In this document: in pieces, positions 4,632-33,367 of the stretch
How positions within the stretch are numbered: position 1 is the stretch's first letter
How the letters are laid out: every line of letters begins with the position of its first letter
NCBI GenBank assembly: GCA_903844155.1
Contig: CAIMSU010000212.1
Coordinates: 1-60,648, forward strand
Length of the DNA: 60,648 bases
Source of the DNA: an uncultured Pseudomonadota bacterium
Lineage (GTDB): Bacteria; Myxococcota_A; UBA796; SXON01
Reading direction: 5' to 3'
Translations under genes and position numbers: made by a program
The notes under the pieces: generated by a model
Databases searched by the model: none
The model's input: only the letters and a program-made list of their open reading frames with translations
What the model was told of the DNA's origin: nothing

Positions 4632-5632
4632 CCAACCCCTACGCCATCGTCATTGCCCGCCACGGCGGCCCGGAAGTGCTGGAGCGTCACGACGTCGCAC
4701 CGCTCACCGCCGGCGCCGGCGAGGTGCGCGTCCGAGTGACCCACGTCGCGCTCAACCACCTGGACACCTGGGTGCGTCGCGGCGTTCCCGGCCATGATTT
4801 CGGCCTCCCGCGCATCCCCGGCAGCGACGTTGCCGGCGAGATCGACGGCCGTGCCGTGGTGCTCCACCCCGGGTGGGGCTGTGGGAGCTGCGCTGCCTGC
4901 CTCGCTGGGCGACAGAACCGTTGCCTCGGCTACCGGCTGCGCGGCGAAAACACCGATGGCGGCTTGCGATCCGAGGTCGTCGTCCCGGCGTGGCAGTGCC
5001 TTCCCGTGCCTCCGGGCCTCACGCCTGCGCAGGCCTGCGCCCTCCCGCTCACGCTGCTGACCGCCTGGCACATGCTCGTTGCCCGCGCGAGGCTTCAGAG
5101 AGGCGAGCGGGTGCTGGTGCAGGCCGGTGGCAGCGGCGTCGGCGTGATGGCGATCCAGATTGCGCTGCTTCACGGCTGCGAAGTTCATGCGACCGCGAGC
5201 ACGCTGGAGCGTCGCGAGCGCCTGCGCGCGTTGGGCGCGACCCCATGGAGCTACGAGCAGATCGGCAAGAAGGGCGGCGATGAATCGGGGCCGCGCGGGT
5301 TTGATGTCGTGTGCGAGTCGGTGGGAGAGGCGACGTGGGAGGCGAGCGTGCGGGCGCTGAAGTGGGGCGGTCGACTGGTCATCTGCGGGGCGACCAGCGG
5401 GGCCGAGGCGAAGATCAACCTTCGCGCCTTGTTCTTCAAGCAGTTGGACCTGCTGGGCTCCACGATGGGCGCCTCCGCAGAGCTGCTGACGGCCTGGGGC
5501 GAGGTGGCGGCCGGACGCATCAAGCCCGTCATCCACGCCATCCTCCCCCTCTCGCGCCTCGCCGAAGGGCATGCAATGCTCGAGGATCGCGCTGCGTTCG
5601 GCAAGATCGTCATCGCCATGGAGACGGAATGA
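4628..5632 (+). CDS. Zinc-type MDR oxidoreductase (alcohol dehydrogenase-like)
   Basis: 334 residues of the medium-chain dehydrogenase/reductase family, with a GroES-like N-terminal domain and a Rossmann domain (QAGGSGVGVMAIQIA). The structural-zinc loop is intact, with four Cys in CGSCAACLAGRQNRC. The segment where classical alcohol dehydrogenases carry the catalytic zinc Cys reads NHLDTWVRRG, with no Cys, as in quinone oxidoreductase or crotonyl-CoA-reductase-like branches. The substrate is therefore unclear and the catalytic zinc is probably absent. The TTG start is fixed by the TTGA overlap with the DedA gene, and the stop overlaps truD by ATGA. Confidence 0.9.
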   Translation: MTNPYAIVIARHGGPEVLERHDVAPLTAGAGEVRVRVTHVALNHLDTWVRRGVPGHDFGLPRIPGSDVAGEIDGRAVVLHPGWGCGSCAACLAGRQNRCLGYRLRGENTDGGLRSEVVVPAWQCLPVPPGLTPAQACALPLTLLTAWHMLVARARLQRGERVLVQAGGSGVGVMAIQIALLHGCEVHATASTLERRERLRALGATPWSYEQIGKKGGDESGPRGFDVVCESVGEATWEASVRALKWGGRLVICGATSGAEAKINLRALFFKQLDLLGSTMGASAELLTAWGEVAAGRIKPVIHAILPLSRLAEGHAMLEDRAAFGKIVIAMETE

Positions 5633-6561
5633 GCGGCTACCACCCCGATGCGGCGCTCCCGCGCTGGACAGACGGCCCCGGCGCAGGCGGGCGTTGGAAG
5701 GAGTCGCCCGAGGACTTCATCGTGGAGGAGCTCCCCCTGGCGGAGCCGACGGGCGAGGGCGAGCACCAGTGGTTCCGGATCCAGAAGAGCGGGCGTACGA
5801 CGCTGGATGTAGTCGAGGCGCTGGGGCGTGCGGCGGGCGTGAGCCCGGACGCGGTCGGCTACGCGGGCATGAAGGACCGCTGGGCGCTGACGACGCAGGA
5901 ATTCACGGTGCAACTTGGCAAACCGGTGACAGTCGAGCGGCTCGCGGAGGAGGGGTACACGGTGCTCGCCGTGTCGAAGACCCGAAAGCGCCTGCGCGTC
6001 GGCCAGCTCGCCGGAAATCGCTTCGCCCTGCGGATCCGCGACGGAAACGCGGCGTTGGCGGGGGAACGGTGCGAGCGACTGCGGCAATCGGCGATGCCGA
6101 ACTACTACGGCGTGCAGCGGGTCGGCGGGGAGGCGCCGTTGCAGGGCGAGGCGATCCTCCGGGGCGGCGGGCCAAAGCTGAACTACAACCAGCTCAAATT
6201 CACGCTGTCGGCGTACCAGAGCGTGCTGTTCAATCGCGTGCTCGCGAGGCGGGGGCGGGCGAGGCTCGCAGGCGATCTGGACGTCGATGGCGTGCCGACG
6301 GGGCCGATGTTCGGGCCGACGATGGCCTGGCCGGGCGGCGAGGCTGCCGAATTGGAGCGGACGATCCTGCGTGAAGCCGACCTGCCGGACGACGCGTGGT
6401 TCCGCTTCCCGAAGCTGACGCAGGGCACCCGCCGCGCGCTCTGGGTCGCCGTGGACCCACAGGTGGCGCCGATCCCGGGCGGTGCGGGCGGCGACTTCTG
6501 GATCCGCTTCTCGCTCCCGGCCGGGAGCTACGCAACCGTGCTGCTGGAGGAGATCCTGTGA
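5629..6561 (+). CDS. truD: tRNA pseudouridine(13) synthase TruD
   Basis: 310 residues. TruD makes pseudouridine 13 in tRNA. Recognisable parts are the N-terminal PEDFIVEE motif, GYAGMKDRWALTTQ with the catalytic Asp (residue 83), FALRIRD, PNYYGVQRVGG, and FTLSAYQSVLFNRVLA in the insert domain. It is slightly shorter than many TruD proteins but all key motifs are present. The ATG overlaps the upstream stop (ATGA), which excludes the longer frame beginning at 5311. The stop overlaps the PPK2 gene by GTGA. Confidence 0.95.
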   Translation: MSGYHPDAALPRWTDGPGAGGRWKESPEDFIVEELPLAEPTGEGEHQWFRIQKSGRTTLDVVEALGRAAGVSPDAVGYAGMKDRWALTTQEFTVQLGKPVTVERLAEEGYTVLAVSKTRKRLRVGQLAGNRFALRIRDGNAALAGERCERLRQSAMPNYYGVQRVGGEAPLQGEAILRGGGPKLNYNQLKFTLSAYQSVLFNRVLARRGRARLAGDLDVDGVPTGPMFGPTMAWPGGEAAELERTILREADLPDDAWFRFPKLTQGTRRALWVAVDPQVAPIPGGAGGDFWIRFSLPAGSYATVLLEEIL

Positions 6562-7364
6562 TTACGAAAGTAGAACCTGGCACGCGTGCTCGGCTCGCGG
6601 ACATCGACCCCGCCGGCAAGGGCCATTACGAAGGGAAGGACGACCCGCGCGTCGCCGCTGATCTGGCTCGGTACCTCGCGCGACTCGTCGAGCTGCAGGA
6701 GCGCCTGATGGCCGAGGGCAAGCAATCCTTGCTGGTCATCCTGCAAGCGCTCGACGCGGCGGGGAAGGACGGCGTTCTCAAAAAAGTCGCCGGTCCCCTC
6801 GATTCCCGCGGGGTCTTCGCGTGGAGCTACAAGGCGCCGGTCGGCGACGAGGCCACGCACGACTACCTCTGGCGCGTCCACCAGCGCACGCCGCGAAAGG
6901 GCGAGATCGCCTTCTTCAATCGGTCCCATTACGAAGAGGTGCTCGTCGTCCGCGTCTTCGACTTCGTCCCCCGCGAGCGGTGGCACAAACGCTACGAGCA
7001 CATCCGCGGCTTTGAGCAGATGCTGGTCGACGAAGGCACGAAGGTCGTGAAGTTGTACCTGCACATCTCCAAGGAGGAGCAACGCGCGCGCCTGCAGGAG
7101 CGGCTGGACATCCCCGAAAAGAACTGGAAGTTCGACCCGAGCGACCTGAAAACCCGCGCCCGCTGGCACGATTTTCAAGCCGCCTACGAGGACGCATTCG
7201 CGGAGACGAGCACCGAGTCCGCGCCCTGGTACATCGTCCCGGCCGACCGCAAGTGGGCGCGCGATCTCGCGGTCGCGAAGCTGCTCGTCGAGACGTTGGA
7301 GGCGATGAACCCGCAGTTCCCGAAGCCGAGCTACGACCCGAAGACCATCACGATCGATCCGTGA
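6558..7364 (+). CDS. Polyphosphate kinase 2 family protein
   Basis: 268 residues. PPK2 enzymes transfer phosphate between polyphosphate and nucleotides. The Walker A motif is LDAAGKDGVLKKV and the Walker B/lid region is FNRSHYEEVLVVRV. The HYEEVLVVRV wording is closer to PPK2 members that act on AMP and ADP (class III) than to FDRSWYN-type class I enzymes; this subclass call is tentative. The Lys-rich C-terminal part (PADRKWARDLAV) is typical. The GTG start is fixed by overlap with truD. A separate ppk1 gene lies at 22738, so the organism has both polyphosphate systems. Confidence 0.93.
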   Translation: MITKVEPGTRARLADIDPAGKGHYEGKDDPRVAADLARYLARLVELQERLMAEGKQSLLVILQALDAAGKDGVLKKVAGPLDSRGVFAWSYKAPVGDEATHDYLWRVHQRTPRKGEIAFFNRSHYEEVLVVRVFDFVPRERWHKRYEHIRGFEQMLVDEGTKVVKLYLHISKEEQRARLQERLDIPEKNWKFDPSDLKTRARWHDFQAAYEDAFAETSTESAPWYIVPADRKWARDLAVAKLLVETLEAMNPQFPKPSYDPKTITIDP

Positions 7365-7981
7365 GTTCAAAGCGGCCAGGAAGCGGGCGCGTCCCTGTCC
7401 TCCCGGGGCTCGTCCTTTGCTCGGCGACAGCGGGAGAGCTGGGCGATCTCCCCGGTGTCACCATCGGAATCGGCCTCTGCGACGCCCTCATCGGAATGAC
7501 GCGCTCAGTGCTGCCCCTGAACCCCGACTTCGTCGTCTTCGTCGGCACGGCCGGCGCTTTACCGGGCAGCGGACTCCAGATCGGCCAGGTCATCTGCGCC
7601 TCCTCCGTCCGTCTCGGCGACGCGGCTCTCGCCCTTGGCCTTGGCTACGTCCCCACGCCCGCGGGCGTCCACACGGGCGTGGCCATCGAGGGCCTCGCCT
7701 ACGTCGACGTCGTCACAAACCTGAGCATCACCTCCGACCCGGACCTTGCAGTCCGGCACGCCCAGACCGCCGAGGTCGAGCACATGGAGGCCTACGCCGT
7801 CGCCCACGCCTGCCACTCCCGACGCATCAATTGGGCCTGCATCCTCGGCATCGCCAACGTTGTCGGGCCGGACGCGCACGCGGAGTGGACCGCCAACCAC
7901 GTCGGCTGCGAGGCGGCTGCTCGGGACGTCGCCCGTCGGTGCCACCGACCCGGATCCTTGATACCCCGCCCACCTCCGTGA
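7361..7981 (+). CDS. Nucleoside phosphorylase-like protein (MTAN/PNP fold)
   Basis: 206 residues. The sequence has GIGLCDALIGMTRSV, FVGTAGALPG and EVEHMEAYAVAHAC, which match the glycine-rich phosphate/nucleoside site and the conserved Met-Glu of the PNP/UDP phosphorylase superfamily, which includes MTA/SAH nucleosidase and futalosine hydrolase. The exact substrate cannot be read from sequence. It is short for the family and its N-terminus is Pro/Gly/Arg-rich. The GTG start overlaps the PPK2 stop (GTGA). It is the last gene of the overlapped run; the next gene begins 7 bases later. Confidence 0.8.
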   Translation: MSSKRPGSGRVPVLPGLVLCSATAGELGDLPGVTIGIGLCDALIGMTRSVLPLNPDFVVFVGTAGALPGSGLQIGQVICASSVRLGDAALALGLGYVPTPAGVHTGVAIEGLAYVDVVTNLSITSDPDLAVRHAQTAEVEHMEAYAVAHACHSRRINWACILGIANVVGPDAHAEWTANHVGCEAAARDVARRCHRPGSLIPRPPP

Positions 7982-8537: not shown

Positions 8538-9025
8538 TGGGGCTGCGGGACAGGCTCAAGGGCGCGGTCAAGTCCGTGATCGGCGGCGGTGGCGGATCGA
8601 GCGCGACCGGGCCGGCTGTGCGCGCGGTGACGGGCCTCGGGAAGGACACGCCGGACGGCTACCGGGTGGTCGCTCCTGTGGGCGCCATCAAGGAGGGTGC
8701 GGCAGGGACCTACGGCCACAACAACAACCGGGTGGTCGCGGTCTTTTTGAAGGACGGGAAATACTACGCCGTCGACAACGAGTGCCGCCATGAGGATGGG
8801 CCGGTCGGCGAGGGCGCCATCAAGGGTTGCCTCGTGAAGTGCCCCTACCACGAGTGGGAGTACGACTTCACGACCGGAAAATGCACGACCCAGCCGGATT
8901 CTCGCCTGGAGGTCTACGCCGTGCGCGTGCAGGACGGGTTCATCCAGGTCGGGCCGATGACCAGCCCGGGCACGAGCATGCGGGGCGGCGAGCACAACGA
9001 CGGATTGAAGACGATCACCCGGTAG
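8537..9025 (+). CDS. Small Rieske [2Fe-2S] protein
   Basis: 162 residues. The Rieske cluster ligands are clear: CRH (Cys83, His85) and CPYH (Cys102, His105), with the spacing of Rieske ferredoxins or ferredoxin-like subunits. Residues 10-40 form a Gly/Ser-rich linker. There is no Tat or Sec signal and no transmembrane helix, so a soluble electron-transfer role for an oxygenase or reductase is likely; no partner oxygenase is adjacent. The second Rieske protein in the window is a larger oxygenase at 39422-40489. Translationally coupled with the upstream gene. Confidence 0.88.
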   Translation: MGLRDRLKGAVKSVIGGGGGSSATGPAVRAVTGLGKDTPDGYRVVAPVGAIKEGAAGTYGHNNNRVVAVFLKDGKYYAVDNECRHEDGPVGEGAIKGCLVKCPYHEWEYDFTTGKCTTQPDSRLEVYAVRVQDGFIQVGPMTSPGTSMRGGEHNDGLKTITR

Positions 9026-9064
9026 ATTTCTCGGCCGGCACTGGCCAGGACCACAGGAGCAGAC

Positions 9065-9409
9065 ATGAGCGCAGTCATCGGGGCCACGTTGCTGAAGGGC
9101 CAGACCATCCGCGACCTCACGGGCGTACTCGGCAAGCTGCAGGAGGGCGGAAAGCCGCTCGCCGTCAGCGTCGAGAGCCGGTGCGTGCCGTACCTCGGCG
9201 ACACCGTGGTCGGCTGGACGGACGGGCCGCCGAGCAGCACGGTGGCGTGGATGCTCTCAGGCAAGGACGCGCACGCGGACGCCTGGAGGCGTTGGACGAT
9301 CTCGCACAAGGACGGCGGCTACGAGATCGGCTGCTTCCCGACGCATTTTCGGAACGCGCAGGACCCGCTCGCGCCAGGCGTGCCGCCCTCGTCGTCCAAG
9401 CGGCGCTGA
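9065..9409 (+). CDS. Hypothetical protein, 114 aa
   Basis: A clear Shine-Dalgarno sequence (aggag) precedes the ATG by 7 bases, supporting a real gene. The product is a small soluble protein with an alpha/beta pattern, two Cys (VESRCVPYL and EIGCFPTHF) and a Pro/Ser/Lys tail. No family was recognised. It follows the Rieske gene by 39 bases in the same direction. It converges with the FG-GAP lipoprotein gene, whose stop is 5 bases away inside the palindrome tgaccggtca. Confidence 0.65.
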   Translation: MSAVIGATLLKGQTIRDLTGVLGKLQEGGKPLAVSVESRCVPYLGDTVVGWTDGPPSSTVAWMLSGKDAHADAWRRWTISHKDGGYEIGCFPTHFRNAQDPLAPGVPPSSSKRR

Positions 9410-9413
9410 CCGG

Positions 9414-11042
<1,629 letters not shown>

Positions 11043-26899: not shown

Positions 26900-27448
26900 A
26901 TGCAACTCCGAGTGCGATCCGGGCCACGCAACGCGCGCTTCGACCCGCCGACAGCCGGCCTCGATGGGGTGCGCGAGCTCGACGACGCGCTCGGCCTCTG
27001 CGTCTGGCGCGTCCTGGCCGAGGCCCTCACCCGTGGCGACCCCCCGCCCGTGGCGCTGCTCCTGACGGGTGACCTGGCCCATCTCGTCGACGTCGTCCCG
27101 CTGCTTCGGGCCGGGGAAGCGCTTGACGGCCGGGGGGTGGCCGGCTTCGCCAGCTTGCCCGGCGTGCTGGTGGTCGCCGTCGTCGGCCTGCTCACCCGCC
27201 GCCACAGGGGGGCGCCAAACGGTCGGTTTGCAGTAGCGTTCCTCGAATGGCCGGACGGGCGGTGGTGGCTCGCGCGGGCAGCGTTGGTGGAGGATGGGGA
27301 ACGCCTGGCCCTGGACCCGCTCGCGGACGTGACCGTTGAGCGCGCCGTCGATGGACTCGGCAAGCCCGGGGGCATCGGCGGTTGGTTTCGCCGGGCGAGG
27401 GTGGAGGGGCTGCGCGCGGAGTTGACGCCGGCGGACGTCGACAACTAG
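26900..27448 (+). CDS. Hypothetical protein, 182 aa
   Basis: A soluble, Arg- and Leu-rich protein with an internal hydrophobic segment (LPGVLVVAVVGLLTRR) that could be a buried strand or a membrane helix. No motif was recognised. The ATG has TAGCCC seven bases upstream and no ribosome-binding site. The gene converges with the GpsA-like gene and both stops use the same ctag tetramer at 27445-27448. Confidence 0.55.
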   Translation: MQLRVRSGPRNARFDPPTAGLDGVRELDDALGLCVWRVLAEALTRGDPPPVALLLTGDLAHLVDVVPLLRAGEALDGRGVAGFASLPGVLVVAVVGLLTRRHRGAPNGRFAVAFLEWPDGRWWLARAALVEDGERLALDPLADVTVERAVDGLGKPGGIGGWFRRARVEGLRAELTPADVDN

Positions 27449-28290
27449 TCGGCGACCGGCTCGCGCTCGATCATGTCGCGGAGCACGTCTTCCGCGCGCG
27501 CCTGTCCGGCCGCGACCCGTCGCACGCCCTCGGTGATCGGCAGGTGGCTCGCCCGTCGCAACAGGGCATCGCAGAGCTCCACCAGCGCGGGGTCGCGCTC
27601 ACCGCGGGCCAGCGCAAGACCATGGTGCAACGCCGGATGATCGGGCACGCTCGCGGCGGCGATCAACTCGCCGACCCCGGCCAGACCCGAAAACGTGCGC
27701 GCCTGCGCCCCCGCCCGAGTGAACAGTCGCGCGCCTTCCGCGATCCCGCGGGACACCGCCAGCGCCTGAACGCCAACCCCGGCGCCAAGCCCGCGCGCAG
27801 CCCCCAGCGCCGCGCAAAGAACCTCGACGAGCGCCCCGGCGAGCTCGGTCCCCACGAGATCGTCGGACTGGTAGACCTGGCAGATCGGCGAGCGGAACGC
27901 GCGGTGTGCCAGGGCGCACACCCCCGCGTAGGGCGACGCGACAACGACGGCCGACGGGGCCCCGCGCTCGATCTCCCCCGACAGCAACGGCCCGGCGAGC
28001 GCGGCTACACGCACGCAGGCGCTCTCCTGTCCGACAAGCTCCGAGAGCCTCCCCCCGGTGCGGCTGTCGAGGCCCCGCGCGGCGAGGATGACGACATCGC
28101 CCGGCCCCGGCGCGAGGCGTCCGAGCACCGCGCGCAGCTCGGCGACCGGCCCATCGATGAGCAGCATGTCAGCAAACAAGCTCTCCGCCGACCGGCCCTC
28201 CGCCCGCACCACGTCCGAACCGGCCGCCCACAGCAGGCGCTCGGCCGCGTCGACCCGCTGGCCCTTTCCCACGAGCGCGACGCGCGTCAC
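27445..28290 (-). CDS. GpsA-like protein without catalytic lysines
   Basis: 281 residues, shorter than GpsA (about 330-340). The middle and C-terminal parts align by eye with NAD-dependent glycerol-3-phosphate dehydrogenase: ARGLDSRTGGRLSELV, LAGPLLSGEIERGAPSAVVV, SDDLVGTELAGAL and TFSGLAGVGELI. The catalytic Lys of the KGLE motif is Arg72 here, and the Lys of the ELGGALKN motif is Val155. The N-terminal dinucleotide motif is replaced by VALVGKGQRVD and the segment after it is compressed. It is therefore probably a non-catalytic paralogue or an enzyme with changed function. The GTG start overlaps the acyltransferase stop (GTGA). Confidence 0.75.
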   Translation of the reverse strand: MTRVALVGKGQRVDAAERLLWAAGSDVVRAEGRSAESLFADMLLIDGPVAELRAVLGRLAPGPGDVVILAARGLDSRTGGRLSELVGQESACVRVAALAGPLLSGEIERGAPSAVVVASPYAGVCALAHRAFRSPICQVYQSDDLVGTELAGALVEVLCAALGAARGLGAGVGVQALAVSRGIAEGARLFTRAGAQARTFSGLAGVGELIAAASVPDHPALHHGLALARGERDPALVELCDALLRRASHLPITEGVRRVAAGQARAEDVLRDMIEREPVAD

Positions 28291-29906
28291 GCCCGCGCAC
28301 CACGGAGGTGGAACACGTCCAGCCGATTCCGATAGTACAACGTCAACTCCCCTGCGATCCGCACCCCCCGATCCTCCGTGATTTCGAGCGCGCGCTTCCG
28401 GTGGAAGTTGGCGAACAACGTGACCGCCTCGTCGAGGATGCGGTCCGCGGTTGGGGGGCCGGTGCGCGGTTGGGTCGAGAGCTGAACGAGGGCCGTGGCG
28501 ATCAGCCGCTCCACGTCGGCGCGCGGCACGACCTTCTGGTCGGGCCCAAGCCGAATGAGCCGATAAACGTCGAGCCCAGGGTGGCGGGACGCCAGCACCT
28601 CCCACGCCGCCCACGCCGCAAGATGCGTGGATTGCACGACGAATCCCGCCCGATACGCGTCGCACAGCCGCCCAGCCAGTCGCTCGGTGTAGAGGTGATC
28701 GCGCTGCTCGTCCACAACGACGGCGCCGCCCCTGTCCGTCACGTAGCCGCGCCGATCCACTGGCGACCCGTGCGGGTCCAGCGAGCGCCCATCGGCGTCG
28801 ATCGGGTTGCCCAGCACGTCCATCGGCTGCCCGAAGGTCACGTGCACCCTCGCGTCAAGCTTCAGGAGCTGCCGTACGAAGCTCGCGACCGTCCTCGCCT
28901 CGCTGAACTCGTCGTCCATGATGATGTAGCGCTGCTTTCCCTCATCCGCCAGGGAGTCGGCGATGAGGCTCTCGGCCTCGAGCACCACGCCGATGGAGAG
29001 GGTGCAGGGGACGACGAACACGTCCCCGTCGCCGGCCCGCGAGGGGTCGGCGAGGTTCTCCTGCCACGCCGCCAGGCCCGTCCCCAGCAGGCCCTTCTTG
29101 AGCTTGGACTCCAGTCGCCCGCTTCGCGACCGGGTCCCGCCGGGAAAGAACAGCGAATGGCACTTTCGGCGTAGAACCTCGATGGAGTAGTCCTTGAGCG
29201 TCTCCTTGTAGAGCGCGTTCCGCTTGCGACGATCCACGGTGTAGGCCCCGAGCCGGCGCATGAAAAACCCCATCGCGGGGTTCTCAAAGAGGTTCAGCCC
29301 CGCGCCGTAGGCGAACGGCGGGAGGCCGGCGGCGTAGAGGGCGTAGCCGATGAGCGGCGAGTCGAGGTTCGAGACGTGGGTGGGGGCGAGGATGACGGTC
29401 GCGCGGCGCGTCAGCTCGCGGATCTGCTCGATCGGCCCGGCGATGGCGATGCGCGAGGCGGGATCCAGGTCGCTCCGGCCCGAGACCACGCTCTTGACGA
29501 CGTCGCGCCCGCGTGACGCCGACAACAGCCGCGTGAGCCCGCGCGGGAGCACGCGCGTCGCAAACCGGTAGGTGCGCGGCGAAAAGGGGTTGTGGATCTC
29601 GTTGGCGTACGCCGAAACGAGGTTGAGGACCGCGGTCTCCATCTCGGACCGCCGCATGTCGCGGAGTGTGTTTGCGGCGGCGTCGACGTGGTCGGCGTAG
29701 GCCCTTTCGTCGGGCGTCGGCTCGCCCCGGGCGTCGTCCAGACGCTTGCGCTCGAAGAACACCGTGTCGGCCAGCACCTCCACGAGCGCCGCGTCTGACA
29801 GCGTCGCCAGACGTCGCCGCGCGCGTGTGACCAGAGCCCCCGCGATGACCTCCGCCGAGAGCGCGATGCCCTCGTTCGGCCCGCGGCCCTCCGGAGCGCC
29901 CGACAC
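28287..29906 (-). CDS. Glycerol-3-phosphate acyltransferase-like protein (PlsB/GPAT)
   Basis: 539 residues. The acyltransferase signature HX4D is HVSNLD (His177, Asp182), and FFPGGTRSRSGR is the phosphate-binding motif of GPAT-type enzymes, with Gly in place of the usual Glu in PEGTRS. Nearby FYxxGLNLFENP and MRRLGAYTVDRRKR match the remaining GPAT blocks. It acylates glycerol-3-phosphate or a related acceptor at the inner membrane to begin phospholipid synthesis. The GTG start lies 4 bases after the ExbD-like gene stop, and its end overlaps the GpsA-like gene, so all five genes 31586-27445 form one apparent operon. Confidence 0.87.
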   Translation of the reverse strand: MSGAPEGRGPNEGIALSAEVIAGALVTRARRRLATLSDAALVEVLADTVFFERKRLDDARGEPTPDERAYADHVDAAANTLRDMRRSEMETAVLNLVSAYANEIHNPFSPRTYRFATRVLPRGLTRLLSASRGRDVVKSVVSGRSDLDPASRIAIAGPIEQIRELTRRATVILAPTHVSNLDSPLIGYALYAAGLPPFAYGAGLNLFENPAMGFFMRRLGAYTVDRRKRNALYKETLKDYSIEVLRRKCHSLFFPGGTRSRSGRLESKLKKGLLGTGLAAWQENLADPSRAGDGDVFVVPCTLSIGVVLEAESLIADSLADEGKQRYIIMDDEFSEARTVASFVRQLLKLDARVHVTFGQPMDVLGNPIDADGRSLDPHGSPVDRRGYVTDRGGAVVVDEQRDHLYTERLAGRLCDAYRAGFVVQSTHLAAWAAWEVLASRHPGLDVYRLIRLGPDQKVVPRADVERLIATALVQLSTQPRTGPPTADRILDEAVTLFANFHRKRALEITEDRGVRIAGELTLYYRNRLDVFHLRGARA

Positions 29907-29910
29907 GCGG

Positions 29911-30441
29911 CTACTTGTGCTGGACGGTCAGCCGGTAGCTCGTGAACTGGGCACGGCCAGCGACGCTGAGCACGCCGGTCAACAGGCCATACGGCGTGTC
30001 TTCGTCCGCCACGACCATCAGGATGCCGTCAAAGTCCGGCCCGTGCGTGCGCAGCGCGATGGCGCGCAGGTCGTCCACGCGCTTGCGCAACGCGGTGTCG
30101 AGCGGCGCATACTGGTTCGCGGGGTCCTTGGTGACGATCTCGCCGTTCTTGATCTGGAGCACCGGCTTGTCGTCCACGACGATCGCAGACTTGGAGATCA
30201 TGACGCGAACTGCCGGCACGACGGGGTCCGGCGCCGTGGACTTCGGCGCGCGCAGGTCGTCGTTCAGCGTGATGTTCTCGGGGGAGTCGGCGTAGACCTT
30301 GATCAGGTAGACCAGCAGGATGGTCATGACGTCCATCATGGCCGTCAGGTTCAGGCCCGCCGCCTCTTCCATGTGGCGATGCTTGCGCTTGACGAAGATC
30401 GCGTCGTCATCGCCAGTCTCGGTGTCGAGGACGTCGCTCAT
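29911..30441 (-). CDS. TolR/ExbD-like motor subunit (second copy)
   Basis: 176 residues. An N-terminal cytoplasmic segment of about 30 residues precedes one membrane helix, LNLTAMMDVMTILLVYLIKV, which carries the conserved proton-path Asp. The periplasmic part includes ILMVVADEDTPYGLLTGVLSVAG, the C-terminal ExbD/TolR fold. The start overlaps the stop of the other ExbD-like gene. One TolQ-like plus two TolR-like subunits is the composition of AglRQS, the gliding motor of Myxococcus. No TonB, TolA or TolB is nearby. Confidence 0.88.
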   Translation of the reverse strand: MSDVLDTETGDDDAIFVKRKHRHMEEAAGLNLTAMMDVMTILLVYLIKVYADSPENITLNDDLRAPKSTAPDPVVPAVRVMISKSAIVVDDKPVLQIKNGEIVTKDPANQYAPLDTALRKRVDDLRAIALRTHGPDFDGILMVVADEDTPYGLLTGVLSVAGRAQFTSYRLTVQHK

Positions 30442-30920
30442 TGCGCACCCAACGCGAGCTGGATGCCCGGAAAGAGATCGCCCTTCGCGTCCTTGCGGGC
30501 AGCGTCCATCGTCGCGACAACCTCCTTGTACGGGGTCTTCGCATCGGCCACCACCTGCAGCGCATCCTTCAGGCCGGGCTGACCCGGGGCCGTCGCCTGG
30601 TCCTTGTACTCACGAAGGAGCTGGGTCAGCTCGCCGTAGGGCAGCCCATTGGGCCCGCGGAGCAGCTCACGGGGCGCGACTCCGTAGCTGGTCAGCACCG
30701 AGATCGCGCGCGGTGACACGGCGACAGTCAAGTACCCCTTCTTGTCCACGTCCGACTGGTCCGAAGGCCCACCGGACACCAACGTCGGCACGAGGACAGG
30801 CGCCTCACGAAGCTGGACGATGTTCGCCGTGACGGCGAGCAGGAACATGACCAGGTTGATCATGATGTCGAGGTATGGGACGAGGTTGAGCTCGCCCTCT
30901 CCACCGCCGCCGCCAGCCAT
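30438..30920 (-). CDS. TolR/ExbD-like motor subunit (first copy)
   Basis: 160 residues. The helix LNLVPYLDIMINLVMFLLAV has the conserved Asp after Pro-Tyr-Leu, in the normal ExbD position. The N-terminus is short and Gly-rich. The periplasmic domain includes LQVVADAKTPYKEVVATMDAAR. It differs clearly from the second copy in sequence, so the two are not a recent duplication and probably form a heteromeric pair around the TolQ-like subunit. It follows that gene by 3 bases. Confidence 0.88.
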   Translation of the reverse strand: MAGGGGGEGELNLVPYLDIMINLVMFLLAVTANIVQLREAPVLVPTLVSGGPSDQSDVDKKGYLTVAVSPRAISVLTSYGVAPRELLRGPNGLPYGELTQLLREYKDQATAPGQPGLKDALQVVADAKTPYKEVVATMDAARKDAKGDLFPGIQLALGAQ

Positions 30921-30923
30921 GTG

Positions 30924-31586
30924 CTACCCCTTGGCCGGGCCAGCGTCGGAGGAGCGGGGGCCCTTCCGCCACTGTGCGTGGGCGTTCATGAACTGGAACA
31001 GCGCGTGCTCGGACTTCTCGATGAGGCTCACCGCCTTGGAGTTGACGACGAGATGCCCAAGGATGCACAGCACGGCGATGGACAGACCGAACGCCGTGTT
31101 GTTCATGGCCTCGGAGATGCTCTTCGAGAGCACGTTGGCGCGCTGGTCCGCCGCAACGCCCGAGATCGCCGCGAACGCGCCGATGAGGCCGGTGACGGTT
31201 CCGATGAGGCCGATGAGCGTTGCGATATTCGCGATGGCCCACAGCCAGGAGATGCGCGTCATGACCACCCCGCGCGCGTCCATCATGGCCTGCTCAACCG
31301 CGAGCATGGGGCTCTCGTAGCCATTCTTGATGAGCCCGAGCAGCGTCCGCGTGGCGCGGGAGAGCGCGGGACGCGGCGCGACCTGGCAGGCCTTCGCAGC
31401 GGCGTCGATGTTGCCCACCTTCAAGTACTTCTCGACCGAGGCAACAAACGTCTTCTCGTTGATGGGCAGCACGAAGTAAACGAGGATGAATCGCTCCAGC
31501 GTCACCCCCATCCCCAGGACGAGGAAGGCGATGTTGATGAGCATGAAATACCCACCATCTTTGAAGAACGTAATAATCCAGGCCAT
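30924..31586 (-). CDS. TolQ/ExbB/MotA-like proton channel subunit
   Basis: 220 residues with three predicted membrane helices: FMLINIAFLVLGMGVTLERF near the N-terminus, ISWLWAIANIATLIGLIGTV in the middle and TAFGLSIAVLCILGHLVV late, with IGLIGTVTGLIGAFAAI as the conserved TolQ/ExbB core. With the two TolR-like proteins it would form an inner-membrane proton-driven motor. A GGAG 8 bases before the ATG gives good translation signals. It is the first gene of the operon; an upstream -10-like TACGTT lies at 31772-31777 on the minus strand. Confidence 0.92.
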   Translation of the reverse strand: MAWIITFFKDGGYFMLINIAFLVLGMGVTLERFILVYFVLPINEKTFVASVEKYLKVGNIDAAAKACQVAPRPALSRATRTLLGLIKNGYESPMLAVEQAMMDARGVVMTRISWLWAIANIATLIGLIGTVTGLIGAFAAISGVAADQRANVLSKSISEAMNNTAFGLSIAVLCILGHLVVNSKAVSLIEKSEHALFQFMNAHAQWRKGPRSSDAGPAKG

Positions 31587-31894: not shown

Positions 31895-33367
31895 TCAGAC
31901 CGTGCCCCATTTGCCCAGCCCGACGCTCGGGATGCTCTTCAGCACGGTGCTCTTCACGATCTCGGTGAGGACGGTCGCACCGCCGATCATCTCCATCAGC
32001 TCGGCCCGCCCCTCGGACTTGGAGAACTTGCGACGGATCAGGTCCGGCCGCATGTAGAAGTTGAGGTAGGCCTTCGTCCGGTACTGGCGCAGGCGCTCGG
32101 CCGTGAATGTCTCGGTTTCAAGCTGGGGGATCGGGCCACCGCCGTTGATCGTGTACCGACGCCAGAAGTCGCCGTCCACGTACCCGCGCTCCTGCGCGAT
32201 CCGGTAGAGGTCGGTGGCGGGGAGCGCGGTGGCGACGGAGTAGCTCGCCCAGTCCAGGCCAAGACCGGCGGAGAACTTGATCATCTCCTCCACGTCCGCG
32301 GGCGTGGTGTCGTAGTAGCCGACCATGAAGTAGCCGCGGGTCTCCAGCCCGACCTCCCGCGCGATCCGGAATGCCTCTTCCGTCTGCTCGCGCGTGATCT
32401 GCTTGTTCATGATCTTGAGCACGCGGTCCGTGCCGGCCTCCACCCCCATGTGGATGGAGCGCAGCCCGGCCTTCTTGAGCCACGTCAGCACCTCGCGATC
32501 GACGGTGTCGACGCGGGCGCGGATGTTGAAATTGACCTTCAGGTTTCGGCGCAGGATCTCCTCGGACAGCGTCCGCATGCGCTTCTTGCCGATGGTGAAG
32601 GTCTCGTCGAACATGACGATCTCCTTCACCCCGTAGGTCTTGACCAGGTACTCCATCTCGTCGACGACGAGCGTTGGAGCGCGAAACTTGAGCTTGTCCG
32701 AGTACACCTGGGAGCAGTACCCACAGTGCCAGGGGCAGCCGCGCGTCGTGACCATGGTCGCGAAGGGCTTGAGCAGCGTGAGGCAGTGGTACCGGTCCAT
32801 CGGGAGCAGATCCCACGCGGGGATCGGGTACTTGTCGATGTCCTTGGACGCGGCGCGCGTGGGGTTCTGGTCGATCTCGCCAGTGGACCGCCGGAAGAGC
32901 GTTCCCGGGATCTTGTCGAGCTCCGAGCCCGACTCCACGTGGTCGCAGATGTCGAGGAAGGTGTCCTCGCCATCGCCGACGACAGCAATGTCGAAGCAGT
33001 CCCACGTCAACGACTCGCGCGGGTAGATGCTCATCTGCGGGCCGCCGCAGACGATGATCGCCTTCGGGCATGCCTGGCGGACGACCTGCGCGATCTCGAT
33101 GACCGCGGGCCAGCCGAGGGTCTTGGCGGTCAGGGCGACGATGTCCGGCTTTTCATCGGCGAATCGCTGCGCCGCGTCCCGGGGCTGGAGGTTCTCGGCA
33201 TGCAGGTCGATGAGGCCGACGGGGTAGCCGTGCTGCCGGACCCACGCTGCGAGCTGGGCCAGAGCGAGCGACGGAAAGATCCCGAGCTTCTCGGCCGCCT
33301 TCTGTGACAGGGGCTGCTGGTCGGCGGCCTCATGGTACTTGACGAAGAGGATCTTGGTTTTTTTCAC
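31895..33367 (-). CDS. B12-binding-type radical SAM protein
   Basis: 490 residues from a GTG at 33367 that has a strong site (gaggag) 6 bases upstream; a longer frame to 33418 is rejected. The N-terminal B12-binding-type domain (KILFVKYHEA, GYPVGLIDLHAENL, IIVCGGPQMSIYP) is followed by CPWHCGYC (Cys211, 215, 218), HMGVEAGTDRVLKIMNKQ and YFMVGYYDTTP, typical of the Elp3/MiaB-like radical SAM domain with cobalamin domain. The substrate is unknown. A possible -10 box TACAAT lies about 39 bases upstream of the GTG, so unlike many neighbours this gene has a leader. Confidence 0.9.
   Translation of the reverse strand: MKKTKILFVKYHEAADQQPLSQKAAEKLGIFPSLALAQLAAWVRQHGYPVGLIDLHAENLQPRDAAQRFADEKPDIVALTAKTLGWPAVIEIAQVVRQACPKAIIVCGGPQMSIYPRESLTWDCFDIAVVGDGEDTFLDICDHVESGSELDKIPGTLFRRSTGEIDQNPTRAASKDIDKYPIPAWDLLPMDRYHCLTLLKPFATMVTTRGCPWHCGYCSQVYSDKLKFRAPTLVVDEMEYLVKTYGVKEIVMFDETFTIGKKRMRTLSEEILRRNLKVNFNIRARVDTVDREVLTWLKKAGLRSIHMGVEAGTDRVLKIMNKQITREQTEEAFRIAREVGLETRGYFMVGYYDTTPADVEEMIKFSAGLGLDWASYSVATALPATDLYRIAQERGYVDGDFWRRYTINGGGPIPQLETETFTAERLRQYRTKAYLNFYMRPDLIRRKFSKSEGRAELMEMIGGATVLTEIVKSTVLKSIPSVGLGKWGTV

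Follow-up and report, generated by a model that had tools for sequence, protein, structure and literature searches.

The DNA analysed here (the window, 60,648 nucleotides (nt)) is contig C212 of an 8.1-megabase draft genome in 375 contigs. It carries on its minus strand a block of five genes, at 27445-31586, in which a TolQ-like protein and two TolR-like proteins adjoin a PlsB-like acyltransferase and a short GpsA-like protein. A first-pass annotation had delimited this block, with gaps or overlaps of no more than 4 nt, and had proposed from the gene order that a proton-driven motor is coupled to the first step of phospholipid synthesis. Gene calls confirmed the coordinates and spacing, and Pfam matches agree with the identities given to the genes, which are, in order of transcription:

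30924..31586, minus strand: tolQ-like gene, 220 amino acids; Pfam MotA_ExbB 4.4e-18; part of the second TolQRR motor of the genome
30438..30920, minus strand: tolR1, TolR/ExbD-like, 160 amino acids; Pfam ExbD 2.7e-13; membrane Asp in LVPYLDIM
29911..30441, minus strand: tolR2, TolR/ExbD-like, 176 amino acids; Pfam ExbD 1.1e-8; membrane Asp in LTAMMDVM
28287..29906, minus strand: short PlsB-like acyltransferase gene, 539 amino acids, GTG start; Pfam Acyltransferase 8.3e-18
27445..28290, minus strand: gpsA-like gene, 281 amino acids, GTG start; Pfam NAD_Gly3P_dh_C 3e-15 and NAD_Gly3P_dh_N 6e-6

A 3-nt gap separates the tolQ-like gene from tolR1, tolR1 and tolR2 overlap by 4 nt, a 4-nt gap precedes the acyltransferase gene, and the latter overlaps the gpsA-like gene by 4 nt (GTGA). 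This last overlap, together with homologues, supports a gpsA-like start at 28290; the 406-amino-acid open reading frame listed for the gene starts too early. Pfam and NCBIfam agree on the family of all five proteins, none of which reaches an equivalog cut-off (0/5). A scan of the block for consensus promoters and minus-strand terminators, weak for such a genome, found none.

Orthologues of the short acyltransferase were searched for in 94 genomes, and 71 neighbourhoods were fetched for comparison of gene order. The counts below refer to 5 loci from the genus of the window (five Myxococcota metagenome-assembled genomes (MAGs), namely the window genome and four sister species), 15 loci belonging to the family's other genera and 46 loci from other families. 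Within the genus the order tolQ-tolR1-tolR2-acyltransferase-gpsA-like is the same in every genome (5/5), and in each a possible acyltransferase start codon lies 4-9 nt past the tolR2 stop. When the window was compared with the four sister species, nonsynonymous divergence (dN) was 0.09-0.36 and synonymous divergence (dS) 0.67-1.30 for all five genes. Because the order, the junction and dN below dS hold across the genus, the packing is not a product of chance, and these rates indicate that purifying selection acts on all five genes and that the unit has been kept in the genus.

Beyond the genus the two halves of the block behave differently. The gene directly before the acyltransferase gene is a TolR gene in 5/5 genus loci. 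The corresponding counts are 0/15 for the family's other genera and 0/46 elsewhere, so the pairing is absent from all 61 loci outside the genus where an orthologous acyltransferase is present and the gene upstream can be read. The gpsA-like gene directly follows the acyltransferase gene on the same strand in 5/5, 12/15 and 37/46 loci, respectively. The conserved neighbourhood in relatives on which the proposed coupling depended is therefore lacking outside the genus: the motor-lipid operon is real at the genus level, where all five genes stay together, but it is not a general arrangement (0/61). We reject on the same count the idea that motor-acyltransferase synteny is an ancient unit. An apparent second case, in L074 (G086, about 5000-7530), was also rejected, since there the TolQ-like gene, although directly upstream, is on the opposite strand and this is the only such locus among the other families. 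The gene orders indicate that the widespread unit is the acyltransferase with its gpsA-like neighbour, both of which depart from the catalytic consensus of the textbook enzymes.

Outside the genus, the gene preceding the acyltransferase varies between lineages. In other families a Ser/Thr kinase gene occupies this position at 17/46 loci, three of which were checked with Pfam. A glutamine synthetase-like gene does so in a few distant loci, and in much of the window's own family a divergent lipoprotein-like gene is found there, with a glutamate racemase-like gene after the gpsA-like gene in 10/13. Kinase-acyltransferase loci occur in one other family of the order (L043, L044, L048-L051, L053-L058, L061 and L066), where the kinase gene often overlaps the short acyltransferase gene by 1-4 nt. 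In the distant locus L069 a gene for an APP1-type phosphatidate phosphatase (8540-9541) overlaps the end of the gpsA-like gene, which supports a role in glycerolipid metabolism; genes of the same cluster occur at two further loci. We know of no description of a complex between a glycerol-3-phosphate acyltransferase (GPAT) and a pseudo-dehydrogenase, and a literature search found no paper combining PlsB and GpsA in Myxococcota or Myxococcales.

Orthologues of the short acyltransferase at full length were found in most of the 94 genomes, and a second, long PlsB-type match was likewise found in most. The window genome, which has 15 PF01553 matches, encodes its full-length PlsB on contig C242 (G000:C242), with HRSHLD, GAFFIKR and FIEGGRSRTG motifs and the GPAT_C domain (PF19277). 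The short protein shares with PlsB the PF01553 core, an RSRxG stretch and the HX4D motif, which is kept in 72/72 orthologues within PTHxSNLDS (one with H for N), and its relatives in the PDB are the bacterial GPAT 9vuq and human GPAT1. Its structure model is poor (predicted local distance difference test (pLDDT) 65), such that the fold match to human GPAT1, with a template modelling (TM) score of 0.48, is only supporting. Unlike PlsB, the 539-residue protein has no PF19277 match, its motif II reads GAYxVDR with Asp where long PlsB has Lys, and its motif III reads FFPGGTRSR rather than FxEGGRSR, with Gly replacing Glu in 71/71 orthologues. Work on PlsB and PlsC has given this Glu a role in catalysis.

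Could the short protein nevertheless be an ordinary PlsB performing the first phospholipid step? The invariant HX4D and the GPATs as closest solved relatives are in its favour, and PlsY was looked for in the window genome and not found. However, the genome already has a full-length PlsB, and the short form lacks both GPAT_C and the motif III Glu, with plsB as its best NCBIfam model at 66.6 bits against a cut-off of 618.5. We regard this explanation as unlikely. The first-pass annotation's "first-step phospholipid synthesis" is doubtful on similar grounds, as the genome has genes for full-length PlsB and canonical GpsA at other sites and both proteins of the pair are off the catalytic consensus.

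The GpsA-like protein gave a confident structure model (pLDDT 92) whose best match is Coxiella GpsA (3k96, TM 0.89), so the glycerol-3-phosphate dehydrogenase fold and the domain order are kept. Its best score against curated GpsA models is 130.7 bits, compared with a cut-off of 257, the chain is shortened, and it is 29.6% identical to the canonical GpsA encoded elsewhere in the genome. Active-site residues, in human GPD1 numbering, were tabulated for 70 acyltransferase-linked or orthologous GpsA-like copies and ten canonical copies. Lys204 is kept in 1/70, Lys120 in 7/70, Arg269 in 3/70 and Thr264 in 6/70, while Asp260 is kept in 47/70 with Glu there in 15; all five residues are present in 10/10 canonical copies. 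The window protein has Arg, Val and Pro at the positions of Lys120, Lys204 and Arg269. The roles of these three are known from human GPD1: the two lysines act at the carbonyl, and Arg269 binds the phosphodianion (PMC12874384).

On these residue losses the GpsA-like protein is probably a pseudoenzyme; our literature search found no paper linking GpsA with a pseudoenzyme. An alternative is that it is still catalytic but uses a different substrate or mechanism, supplying or consuming an acceptor for the acyltransferase. The intact fold, the frequent retention of Asp260 or Glu and a dinucleotide-binding GxGxxG visible in approximately 43/70 members are consistent with this, as is the acyltransferase-linked copy of G031 (L062, 5216-6229): the lysines, Arg and Asn of the active site are retained there, and that genome has no other GpsA match. 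However, nearly all other members have lost Lys204, Lys120, Arg269 and Thr264 together, the R269A substitution alone lowers kcat 41,000-fold in human GPD1 (PMC12874384), and the degenerate N-terminal glycine motif of the window copy retains only GxG; continued catalysis therefore seems improbable to us. The intact and sole GpsA of G031 points to a functional GpsA at the origin of the pair.

Turning to the motor, the TolQ-like protein aligns with E. coli TolQ structures across the channel helices, and the presence of one TolQ and two TolR in a row, each TolR with its membrane Asp, upholds the AglRQS-like composition proposed initially. Myxococcus xanthus has AglRQS, GltD/E/G and additional copies including M2 (Luciano et al. 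2011, PMC3169522); the window motor resembles AglRQS and M2 in having one TolQ-like and two TolR-like proteins with Asp in both TolR, a likeness of composition. The window genome has nine MotA_ExbB genes, and, as in M. xanthus, there is more than one motor of this kind. In a TolQ tree the window copy, the four sister copies and five family copies form one clade (support 100) separate from the Glt-linked motor. Glt-linked motors have Ser or Asn in place of the membrane Asp of the first TolR in all readable family cases and in L169-L173, leaving Asp in the second TolR alone; the readable clusters of this type, next to GltD/E/G-like genes, are among L155-L162 and L169-L174. The clade of the window's motor, including the Glt-linked L164 and L165, retains Asp in both. 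AglQ and AglS are both reported to carry the Asp (PMC9389320), so in this respect the window motor matches AglRQS better than the genome's own Glt-linked motor does. A search for papers on AglQ/AglS D28N found none.

Searches with TolQ and TolR2 located the orthologous motor elsewhere in the family (55-63% TolQ identity). In six genomes of four other genera it lies beside a Glt-like (AglRQS/GltG-type) envelope cluster, at loci L155-L159 (G013, G012, G008, G005, G014) and L174 (G006, cut by the contig end). The gene order there is GltD-like, GltE-like, a small protein, a first TolQRR, GltG-like, several envelope genes and FtsK, followed by LolA, RimO, an H+ pyrophosphatase (in some loci), the window-type TolQRR and, where the contig continues, a lipoprotein-like gene. 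The window-type motor is thus about 11-13 kilobases (kb) from the GltD/E/G-like motor cluster. The GltG-like proteins match NF033760 at 1e-20 to 1e-34, below the cut-off, and the AgmX/PglI C-terminal domain above it.

In the window genome, the Glt-linked motor is on contig C366 (G000:C366), where a lipoprotein-like gene and rplC come after FtsK; rplC also has this position in two sister species. The 16 kb past FtsK contain neither LolA nor RimO nor a second motor. Since these genes are missing from the FtsK end of the window genome, in contrast to the six genomes above, the motor was most likely relocated in the genus ancestor. The acyltransferase side was evidently rearranged as well, since the genes c4 and c3 lie after the gpsA-like gene in the genus and before the acyltransferase gene elsewhere in the family. 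Moreover, motor and acyltransferase appear, suggestively in view of the draft genomes, to occur independently: G006 and G019 have the motor with no short acyltransferase copy detected at E <= 1e-60, and G016 has the short acyltransferase with only weak TolQ matches.

The genes flanking the block are as follows:

31895..33367, minus strand: upstream neighbour, B12-binding radical SAM protein; Pfam Radical_SAM 4.6e-27 and B12-binding 2.8e-18
26900..27448, plus strand: c4, convergent neighbour; no match in Pfam and NCBIfam searches

The radical SAM gene, whose nearest models are of the BchE/HpnJ type with scores below cut-off, ends 308 nt before tolQ and is not counted in the five-gene unit; the end of c4 overlaps that of the gpsA-like gene by 4 nt. 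A radical SAM gene is upstream of tolQ in 5/5 genus genomes and 0/15 other family loci, and c4/c3 are kept downstream in 4/5 genus genomes (the contig of the fifth ends). The flanking genes are about as conserved as the block, indicating that the whole stretch is syntenic and that the tolR2-acyltransferase junction is not singled out.

The first-pass annotation had suggested looking elsewhere for TolA/TonB partners of the motor. GltG-like genes were found in the motor cluster on C366, and contig C36 has a separate cluster in which a TolB_N gene stands beside TolQ and a weak TonB_C match. At the five-gene locus, the gene list and Pfam revealed no GltG/TonB-like, TolA, TolB or Pal gene. The window motor differs in this from AglRQS, adjoining lipid genes without a GltG-like gene, although its family relatives are, like AglRQS, near GltD/E/G-like genes.

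We think it likely that two old modules, an AglRQS-like motor and an acyltransferase/pseudo-GpsA pair, came together in a single event in the genus ancestor and today make up one compact operon. What the analysis establishes directly is the sequences, the synteny and the residue losses. Some points weigh against this reading: with only draft MAGs for the close relatives, a gene that seems absent may in some cases lie in an assembly gap; neighbourhood genes were called with a home-made caller that gives approximate starts; and five species separated by dS near 1 share the order and junction, which makes selection for joint expression possible. This last observation also favours functional coupling in the genus, in which motor and pair would serve one process, for example motor-driven phospholipid traffic matched to the supply of acyl-glycerol-phosphate. 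There is precedent in enterobacteria, where the tol-pal operon starts with ybgC, YbgC bound to acyl carrier protein (YbgC-ACP) binds PlsB and Pss, and outer-membrane phospholipid accumulates in tol-pal/ybgC mutants (PMC6013679). The Tol-Pal system (ybgC-tolQRA-tolB-pal-cpoB) thus also combines a Tol motor with a cytoplasmic lipid-metabolism protein in one operon, but the window has two TolR, no TolA, TolB or Pal, and an acyltransferase in place of the thioesterase. The count of 0/61 outside the genus, the motor of G006 and G019 without a detected short acyltransferase, the similar conservation of unrelated neighbouring genes and the lack of a TolA/TonB-like gene at the locus make such coupling a poor prospect; as evidence that motor and lipid synthesis work together, the five-gene operon is weak. 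The claim that the arrangement had not been described holds insofar as our literature search found no paper joining AglR, AglQ, AglS or TolQ with an acyltransferase (three papers matched for ExbB with an acyltransferase and an operon were unrelated), but ybgC-tolQRA already joins a Tol motor to a contact of phospholipid synthesis (PMC6013679).

If two modules were indeed joined, the first (tolQ-tolR1-tolR2) would be a second AglRQS-like proton-driven motor, assembled by homology as a TolQ pentamer around a TolR pair with a proton-carrying Asp in each. In the family it usually sits beside a Glt-like cluster that spans the envelope and includes a GltG/TonB-like protein, so the motor most likely delivers force across the periplasm to an outer-membrane partner whose gene lies elsewhere. 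The second module would be the pair that is conserved phylum-wide: a PlsB-type acyltransferase acting in glycerolipid metabolism, and a GpsA-like protein that, having lost the hydride-transfer residues and kept the fold, is most likely a binding, scaffold or regulatory subunit. The two are probably co-transcribed in the genus. More tentatively, and at somewhat less than even chances, a pseudo-GpsA may regulate or scaffold the short PlsB-type acyltransferase in much of the phylum, with the pair in this genus also carried on the transcript of the AglRQS-like motor.

In summary, the synteny points to rearrangement, and the motor-lipid operon would matter little beyond one genus; a tight operon in a single genome can mislead about function when relatives are not compared. 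The part worth following is the conserved acyltransferase/pseudo-GpsA pair. If the dead GpsA does control the acyltransferase, these bacteria would have a means of tying glycerolipid acylation to the level of glycerol-3-phosphate or NAD(P)H.

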